Source of the DNA: Pseudobdellovibrionaceae bacterium
GTDB taxonomy: Bacteria > Bdellovibrionota > Bdellovibrionia > Bdellovibrionales > Bdellovibrionaceae
Direction: 5' to 3'
DNA: 58,584 nucleotides
NCBI GenBank assembly: GCA_021731025.1
Contig: JAKFYD010000050.1
Coordinates: 1-58,584 of the forward strand
Position 1 is the stretch's first letter. Every line of letters begins with the position of its first letter. The notes beneath the pieces are model-generated. The model searched no databases and was not told the origin of the DNA. It saw nothing but the letters and a program-made list of their open reading frames with translations. Positions 15,905 to 18,073 of the stretch are shown here, piece after piece. A program made the position numbers and the translations under genes.

Positions 15905-16573
15905 TTACTGAACTGGAGCGCAAATTTCACTGAGCTTCTGTCCATCGGGGCCTTCTTGAGCAGGCTCCGAGGTCAACACCGTGATTTTTTTGTTCAATCG
16001 ACTCTGTTGGGCTAAAGAAGAAATCATAAGCTCAACCTTATCAACAAATTTAGGGGCAATCTTTTCATCTTTCGTTTCATTCTCTTTGGCTTCAGAGTTG
16101 GGCACGGCTTGCTTCACTTTTCGAATTTTACCCAAACCAACGAGCTCTAAAAGAGCCTTCTTTTCTATCCAAATCCCCTTCAAGCTTTGAACCTTAGCTT
16201 CCCGAACCGGAGAGTTTGATGCTGTTTCGAACGTCTTAGTTGTCACACTTCCCGAATAAGTTTTATCAGGTAAAAGATAAATTTTGAGCACGTAACTGGT
16301 GTAAAAAGATTTATCGAGGGAATCAATTTTCAAGGGATTTTTGATATTAGTTAAAACGGTATAGGTTTGTGAATTATCAGTGCAGACGGCCTTCGAAAGA
16401 AGCTCTCCTTTTTCAAGCTCGATACGCTGAATATCCGCGTCTCTAAATTCGGTACTATCTTCTACCGCCTTCTTTACACTGTCCTGGCAAGCCACCAGCC
16501 CAAGCGCAAGAACAATTACACCTGTCAAAAGGATAGACATAAAAACGGTCTGTAAGTCTTCTTTATTGAACAT
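15905..16573 (-). CDS. Putative lipoprotein of unknown function
   Basis: This 222-residue protein has a long N-terminal region, a hydrophobic stretch (about 12-28) and a lipobox-like LVAC (Cys29), so it is probably a lipoprotein. The mature part is Lys/Glu-rich and mostly polar, with a low-complexity stretch NSEAKENETKDEKIAPK. No known domain was recognised. It is convergent with the subtilase gene (2 bases apart). The striking feature is upstream: its AGGAG ribosome-binding site is fully inside a perfect 11-bp hairpin (16576-16606). Confidence 0.7.
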   Translation of the reverse strand: MFNKEDLQTVFMSILLTGVIVLALGLVACQDSVKKAVEDSTEFRDADIQRIELEKGELLSKAVCTDNSQTYTVLTNIKNPLKIDSLDKSFYTSYVLKIYLLPDKTYSGSVTTKTFETASNSPVREAKVQSLKGIWIEKKALLELVGLGKIRKVKQAVPNSEAKENETKDEKIAPKFVDKVELMISSLAQQSRLNKKITVLTSEPAQEGPDGQKLSEICAPVQ

Positions 16574-16575
16574 AA

Positions 16576-16606
16576 AAACTCCTTAAATCTAATACTTAAG
16601 GAGTTT
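16576..16606 (-). promoter_or_regulatory. Hairpin sequestering the ribosome-binding site of the 15905-16573 lipoprotein gene
   Basis: Read on the minus strand, AAACTCCTTAA pairs perfectly with TTAAGGAGTTT (11 bp, 9-base loop). The 3' arm contains AGGAG, five bases before the ATG at 16573. In the mRNA this would bury the ribosome-binding site, so translation would need the hairpin to open by heat, a protein, a small RNA or ligand binding elsewhere. The pairing is read directly; the regulatory role is inferred. Confidence 0.6.
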
Positions 16607-16771
16607 CAAGTTCGGGACCAAGATTCAAATTTCTACAAGGATCGGCATAATAATGGTGCTCGTAGATTTGTCCTTCGGCTATTTAGAATGGAAAATTAAT
16701 TTTTGAGATAGATATTTCCAATAACATACTGAAAATACTAATATTTATATTATATATAAAGTTAATTTAAT

Positions 16772-16806
16772 TTTTAAAGTTAATTAACAAATAATTAACT
16801 TTAAAA
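16772..16806. promoter_or_regulatory. Perfect 15-base inverted repeat upstream of the metalloprotease gene
   Basis: TTTTAAAGTTAATTA (16772-16786) and TAATTAACTTTAAAA (16792-16806) are exact reverse complements separated by ACAAA. They lie in a very AT-rich 294-base gap, and a related AAAGTTAATTT copy occurs just upstream at about 16758. This could be an operator or a leader hairpin. A nine-codon ORF (16815-16844) with AGGGA before its ATG follows immediately, so a leader-peptide arrangement is conceivable. Confidence 0.45.
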
Positions 16807-16867: not shown

Positions 16868-18073
16868 ATGAAGAACTTTATTTTAATAATGCGTATTTTA
16901 ATTATCGTTTTTTACTTTATGTCCTTCAATGCTACTGCAGGCGAAGGTTGGGTCAGTGGTGGCGGTGAGCTTATACAAGATGCGCAAAATCCGTGGTTCA
17001 TCAAAAACACGAAGCAAGTAAAATATTGCCTTATTATTGACGAGAAAAATTTTGGACAACAACTAGAAGAAGTTCGGCCAAGAATCATAAAGGCTTTTAG
17101 CTTTTGGAAAACTCAATTCACGCAATCAGCTTATTACTTTGCTTACCCAGAGATTCGTCTCGGAGAACAAAGTTTCCAGGAAGTTAAATGTGATGAATCT
17201 CCCGACATTGTTTTTCAATTTGGGACTCTTACAGTCGAGCAAATTAAAAAAATAGAAAATCCAAATCGACATGTCGGGATCACCGTTAGAACAAGTTATG
17301 ATCGAATTAATTTGAAGGGAAAAGGATTCGTTTACATCTCCCCTCAAGAGGGGCCACTTAAGGTGGATCTTCACAGTATTAAAGATAAAAACTGGAAGCC
17401 TTGGACAGCGGCAAAAGGAGCATACCTTCTCCCGGTGCTTATCCATGAAATAGGGCATATTTTTGGAATACCTCATGACGAAGATCTTTTTCTAATGGGG
17501 CAACGAAGCGTAGAACGCATATTTTCCCTTGCAACAAATGAATCCACATCAAAATCTACGGAAGAGTACTGGCATAATTTAAACCGAAGTAATCAATTAA
17601 ATACTTACAGAATATTTTATGCAGATGGTGTTCCTCGAGATGGTTATACTTGTTATGAACCCAAGCTCCCAATTATCATCAGCCAGTTCTTTAATTTAAA
17701 TAATGATGAAAAATGTGTGTTCTTGGATGTTATTGATAAAAACTTTTCACTAAAGGTTAGCACAGGTGGATCTAAAATCACAAGACAGGTTGGTACGGCT
17801 AAGTTTAAAAATAAACGGATTCGCAGTATGCGAATTGTTGTAAAGATGTGGCTTACGAATGAACAAGTTGTTCTTAATTTACCAGTTGCTGGTATCCAAC
17901 CGACCGGCGTCGCTATGCGAGAAGATCAAGTTCTATTTCAAGGGCATTTTAATTTTGATGATGGAAAACCGGGAAAACAAATTTTTATTAATGGCGGAAT
18001 GTTGAACTCCTTAACCATTGGTGGTGAGTATGGCGGTCAAATTGTACCGGATCTGTTCGGTTACGAACCTTAG
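16868..18073 (+). CDS. Secreted metzincin-like zinc metalloprotease
   Basis: This 401-residue protein has a signal peptide (about 1-23, FNATAGEG). The zinc-binding motif HEIGHIFGIPHDED near residue 193 follows the HExxHxxGxxH pattern of metzincins. About 200 residues lie before the motif and 200 after it. The C-terminal half looks beta-rich and has no recognised domain. GGAG lies about 8 bases before the ATG. It is likely an extracellular or periplasmic protease, which suits a predatory or degradative lifestyle; the substrate is unknown. I saw no Met-turn that I could assign with certainty. Confidence 0.8.
   Translation: MKNFILIMRILIIVFYFMSFNATAGEGWVSGGGELIQDAQNPWFIKNTKQVKYCLIIDEKNFGQQLEEVRPRIIKAFSFWKTQFTQSAYYFAYPEIRLGEQSFQEVKCDESPDIVFQFGTLTVEQIKKIENPNRHVGITVRTSYDRINLKGKGFVYISPQEGPLKVDLHSIKDKNWKPWTAAKGAYLLPVLIHEIGHIFGIPHDEDLFLMGQRSVERIFSLATNESTSKSTEEYWHNLNRSNQLNTYRIFYADGVPRDGYTCYEPKLPIIISQFFNLNNDEKCVFLDVIDKNFSLKVSTGGSKITRQVGTAKFKNKRIRSMRIVVKMWLTNEQVVLNLPVAGIQPTGVAMREDQVLFQGHFNFDDGKPGKQIFINGGMLNSLTIGGEYGGQIVPDLFGYEP

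Follow-up and report, generated by a model that had tools for sequence, protein, structure and literature searches.

A predicted hairpin over the Shine-Dalgarno sequence of a lipoprotein-like gene in a Pseudobdellovibrionaceae bacterium

Introduction

Does a perfect inverted repeat that lies exactly over the Shine-Dalgarno (SD) sequence of a gene control its translation, and how would a gene behind such a structure be expressed? This question is raised by a lipoprotein-like gene on the minus strand of the window, the whole stretch of 58,584 nucleotides analysed here, for which the initial annotation had described a hairpin burying the ribosome-binding site. The features of the leader and of the gene are as follows.

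15905 to 16573, minus strand: predicted 222-aa lipoprotein with a lipobox-like LVAC at residues 26-29 (ORF and sequence reading)
16576 to 16606, minus strand: inverted repeat, forming in the mRNA a 14-bp stem with a 5-nt loop that holds the SD AAGGAG (sequence and folding)
16579 to 16584, minus strand: SD AAGGAG, within the 3' arm, 5 bases ahead of the ATG (sequence)
16598 to 16603, minus strand: anti-SD CTCCTT, within the 5' arm (sequence)

Results

The hairpin and the gene behind it

The minus-strand sequence ahead of the lipoprotein-like gene is GAAACTCCTTAAGTATTAGATTTAAGGAGTTTTTATG. Two arms of 11 bases, AAACTCCTTAA (16606-16596) and TTAAGGAGTTT (16586-16576), are exact reverse complements separated by a 9-base loop, as the initial annotation had stated, except that it let the hairpin start at 16574, 2 bases too wide; its placement of AGGAG 5 bases before the ATG was also correct. 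In the minimum free energy (MFE) structure of the mRNA, the 11 perfect Watson-Crick pairs were lengthened inward and outward with G-U pairs, giving the 14-bp stem. The hairpin as a repeated element was ruled out, with a single copy in the genome, and the arm pair ACTCCTTAAN{3,15}TTAAGGAGT occurred once, at this place, in the 291 genomes sampled from the phylum.

The gene starts with the ATG at 16573-16571 and contains 222 codons, with a stop codon ending at 15905. The N-terminus of the product, MFNKEDLQTVFMSILLTGVIVLALGLVACQ, resembles a signal peptide and ends in the lipobox-like LVAC, and the protein is therefore predicted to be a lipoprotein. No Pfam or NCBIfam family was matched, and the AlphaFold model, built on a two-row alignment, had low confidence (pLDDT 56.5). 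A second in-frame ATG is present at 16540 on the same strand, outside the stem and without an SD, and a start there would bring the length of the signal peptide nearer to that of the ortholog described below; which of the two ATG codons is the true start is not certain.

Burial of the SD compared with the genome background

Folding and opening costs were computed with ViennaRNA under the nearest-neighbour model. The background consisted of 483 predicted genes with an SD, taken from the window and from 32 unbiased stretches, each of 20 kb, elsewhere in this genome, a set that leaves out stretches picked for known hits and in which gene and start calls are heuristic. At 30 °C, the predicted cost of freeing the SD was 16.0 kcal/mol compared to a background mean of 3.4 (sd 2.3), which is 5.4 sd above the mean and rank 1/483. 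The cost ranged from 13 to 19 kcal/mol across 20-37 °C, varying with the stretch folded, and the isolated hairpin had a predicted stability of -20.3 kcal/mol at 20 °C, -14.7 at 37 °C and -13.0 at 42 °C. The 11-bp stem was also the longest SD-covering stem among the 483 genes, the next ones being of 9, 8, 8 and 8 bp. The SD of a credible ORF thus lies inside a stem whose opening cost is clearly over the genome background, as is expected for an SD-occluding 5'-UTR hairpin, and the buried ribosome-binding site of the initial annotation is borne out by the folding prediction as an extreme case for this genome.

Conservation and genomic context

One ortholog was found (L003:1498-2112), in a genome of the same genus that is 81% complete (G001), with 21-24% identity. 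It occupies the corresponding position there, flanked by genes for an S8 protease and an alpha/beta hydrolase. Its leader is unrelated, carrying GGAGG without a comparable stem, with an opening cost of 5.0 kcal/mol at 30 °C. No further ortholog was found in 40 relatives, in the genus or in 66 genomes of the family, and when the lipoprotein and the adjacent hydrolase were each scanned against 84,980 species genomes, no useful relative was returned, the lipoprotein scan reaching close relatives only. Absence of the pairing in relatives had been named beforehand in the initial annotation as an observation that would refute its reading, and as far as this can be tested it is what we found, in a single distant ortholog from an 81% complete genome, which speaks against a conserved role. 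Because the ORF is intact and a syntenic ortholog exists at this low identity, the lipoprotein-like gene is probably maintained.

Between the lipoprotein and hydrolase genes, the window contains a gene for an M10-type metallopeptidase (16868-18073, plus strand) that is absent from this place in G001, and the region upstream of the lipoprotein gene therefore differs between the two genomes. Since this copy splits genes that adjoin in the genus-mate, it was either gained here or lost there. From this arrangement, the hairpin accompanies a rearranged leader and looks lineage-specific.

The metallopeptidase (matrixin-like) has a paralog elsewhere in the genome (G000:C3:20155-21396, minus strand), with 52% identity across the first 250 residues and a similar upstream stretch. 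Upstream of the window copy, a perfect 15-bp A+T-rich palindrome, TTTTAAAGTTAATTA-ACAAA-TAATTAACTTTAAAA, occupies positions 16772-16806 (plus strand). Its core, TTAATTAACAAWTAATTAA, had a single other site in the genome at up to 2 mismatches, before the paralog (G000:C3:21471-21489), and is a candidate for a shared operator or promoter element. The gene divergent from the paralog gave a weak match to the TIGR02147 family (E 1e-5, under the curated cut-off).

A chance origin as the main rival

The main rival to an occluding hairpin is an inverted repeat produced by chance or by mutation, without a regulatory role, and tolerated owing to low use of the gene or to a start that works otherwise. 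We regard this as a real possibility, if a doubtful one. The repeat in itself is unremarkable, as perfect inverted repeats with arms of at least 11 and loops of 3-30 show hardly any enrichment in the window (4, compared to 1-3 in five first-order Markov sequences). The lengths of the SD-covering stems in the background fall smoothly, with 7 genes at 7 bp, 3 at 8 bp, 1 at 9 bp and 1 at 11 bp (n=483). When the true SD context was retained and the 60 bases upstream were drawn from a Markov model of this region, 2/4000 leaders (about 5 of 10,000) had an 11-bp stem over the SD. This corresponds to about 0.03 such leaders per window (about 55 genes) and to one or two in the genome, whose gene number, estimated from its size, is about 3,300; the hairpin is notable at its place, yet at genome scale it is within chance. 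The absence of the stem from the ortholog also fits this reading, and so does the frequency of the motif CTCCTTN{3,20}AAGGAG, which has 4 occurrences in the genome vs 5 for the reversed control, without excess. What speaks against chance is that the repeat is placed precisely on a strong SD (TAAGGAG) and forms the most extreme case of the 483 genes, together with the low expectation for a single window.

A looser motif, CTCCTN{3,25}AGGAGN{4,10}ATG, was found 15 times in the genome vs 5 for its control. This count is owed in part to CTCCT...AGGAG palindromes that lie ahead of an ATG on both strands, at G000:C9:47045-47092 and G000:C22:32096-32136, and that might originate from closely spaced divergent starts.

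Extent of the transcript

Whether the hairpin is present in the mRNA depends on where transcription starts. A consensus scan gave promoter-like sites with predicted starts near 16640 and 16742, both upstream of the whole stem. The first corresponds to the following site.

16647 to 16674, minus strand: weak sigma-70-like promoter AGGACA-16-TATTAT, 9/12 (consensus match only)

A transcript from this site, starting near 16640, would include the whole hairpin, and for transcripts from the upstream consensus promoters the opening cost was 14-15 kcal/mol at 30 °C. Such consensus matches are weak evidence for a transcript that carries the whole structure. If transcription started within the repeat instead, which the initial annotation had named as its other refuting observation, the 5' arm would be promoter DNA and the SD of the mRNA would be free. 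Truncation to 16600 or beyond, by which the 5' arm is partly lost, lowers the predicted cost to 3.7-6.4 kcal/mol, an ordinary value for this genome, and such a start would explain how a maintained gene copes with this sequence; however, the scan, which covered sigma-70-type sites only, found no consensus promoter-like site suitably placed, and we consider an internal start unlikely. Short upstream frames with TTG starts at 16628, 16621 and 16609 enter the 5' arm; they lack an SD, begin with a rare start codon and may be due to chance.

DNA operator and terminator readings

The perfect dyad symmetry, with 11-bp half-sites whose centres lie 20 bp apart (about two helical turns), would suit an operator that binds a dimeric regulator near the gene start, but no second copy was found in the genome or in the 290 others, and no regulator gene adjoins. 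Moreover, one arm is the usual SD context (TAAGGAG in 13/483 leaders, AAGGAG in 27/483), so that the other arm alone needs explaining, and we judge an operator quite improbable. An intrinsic terminator or attenuator, in which the stem followed by TTTTT would halt transcription ahead of the gene, is very improbable: the 3' arm does run on into a T tract (GGAGTTTTT), but the stem has just three G-C pairs and uses up most of this tract, which is a common SD-to-ATG spacer here (AAGGAGTTTTTATG is also found at L050 and L074), and a terminator scan made no call at the hairpin.

Temperature behaviour

The location of the SD in an A+U-rich stem directly ahead of the start codon had suggested that the stem melts over moderate temperatures and acts as an RNA thermometer, warming freeing the SD. 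The nearest-neighbour model does not support this melting: with ViennaRNA, the probability of a free SD was 4e-13 at 20 °C, 7e-10 at 37 °C and 6e-9 at 42 °C, below 1e-8 throughout this range, and it reached 1e-5 at 60 °C and merely about 1e-2 at 80 °C. The stem is thus predicted to stay closed up to about 80 °C and not to open within physiological temperatures. The hairpins of known thermometers are imperfect and far less stable, with published values of -4 to -8 kcal/mol vs -14.7 at 37 °C for the present stem. The thermosensing hairpins of Pseudomonas ibpA have stabilities of -4.1 to -7.6 kcal/mol, and in ibpA variants with perfect SD pairing expression was lost at low and high temperature and the heat response was abolished (PMC3669281). 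Because the SD would remain paired at all plausible growth temperatures and the ibpA hairpins are far weaker, a thermometer is disfavoured to the point of being hardly credible. No known thermometer family was matched in the window, where one tRNA was the sole Rfam match; no riboswitch aptamer was found upstream by the same search, and the leader is not conserved in comparison with the ortholog.

Discussion

Strong occlusion of the SD is well supported in silico, with exact arms over AAGGAG, a 14-bp MFE stem, the first rank among 483 genes and no predicted melting at growth temperatures. Our leading explanation, held with moderate confidence, is that a cis-acting 5'-UTR hairpin occludes the SD of a lineage-specific lipoprotein gene and would hold its translation very low. 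By the relation between stability and translation cited in PMC3669281, every 1.4 kcal/mol alters translation about ten-fold, and the effect sets in at about -5 to -6 kcal/mol; a stem as strong as the one modelled here would, at equilibrium, nearly silence the gene. In the mechanism that we propose, the transcript would carry the whole hairpin, which would occlude the SD in cis and lower translation, and the stem might be opened, when the lipoprotein is needed, through co-transcriptional loading of ribosomes or by an sRNA, a protein or a translating ribosome.

Several points weigh against occlusion. A hairpin that nearly silences it would be unexpected in a maintained gene; the structure appears not to be conserved, with the lone ortholog (81% complete genome) lacking the stem and the arm pair unique in the phylum sample; and chance is expected to give about one or two stems of this kind per genome. 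Given the intact ORF and the ortholog, either the hairpin is opened by something, or very low expression is intended, or the transcript begins within the repeat. A protein or small-RNA switch had also been thought plausible in the initial annotation; a translational switch that is tightly shut until a trans-acting factor (sRNA or RNA-binding protein) opens the perfect SD hairpin and turns on a surface lipoprotein seems to us to have a small probability.

An SD-sequestering hairpin is an already known kind of structure. In the coat cistron of MS2, among other examples, a local stem includes the SD, and the access of ribosomes falls in proportion to how stable this stem is, as in the work by de Smit and van Duin on stability and translation discussed in PMC9894550. 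The value quoted there for the wild-type MS2 hairpin is -7.9 at 42 °C, compared to -13.0 for the stem predicted here, which differs also in that the start codon is just outside it. ROSE-like and fourU thermometers likewise pair the SD within a 5'-UTR stem, whereas the stem described here is perfect, without mismatches, and much stabler, is not predicted to melt in the growth range and precedes a gene that is not a heat-shock gene. A stem-sequestered SD is also found in mgtQ-mgtB, where it is coupled to a uORF and can be opened by a ribosome on this small upstream frame (PMC8092293); in contrast, the TTG frames that run into the present stem have the shortcomings noted above.

If functional, the occluding hairpin would add a further case of translational control through SD sequestration, from a lineage that has received little study, and a stem this stable would offer a clean way to test how expression of a maintained gene is achieved behind a nearly unopenable site.
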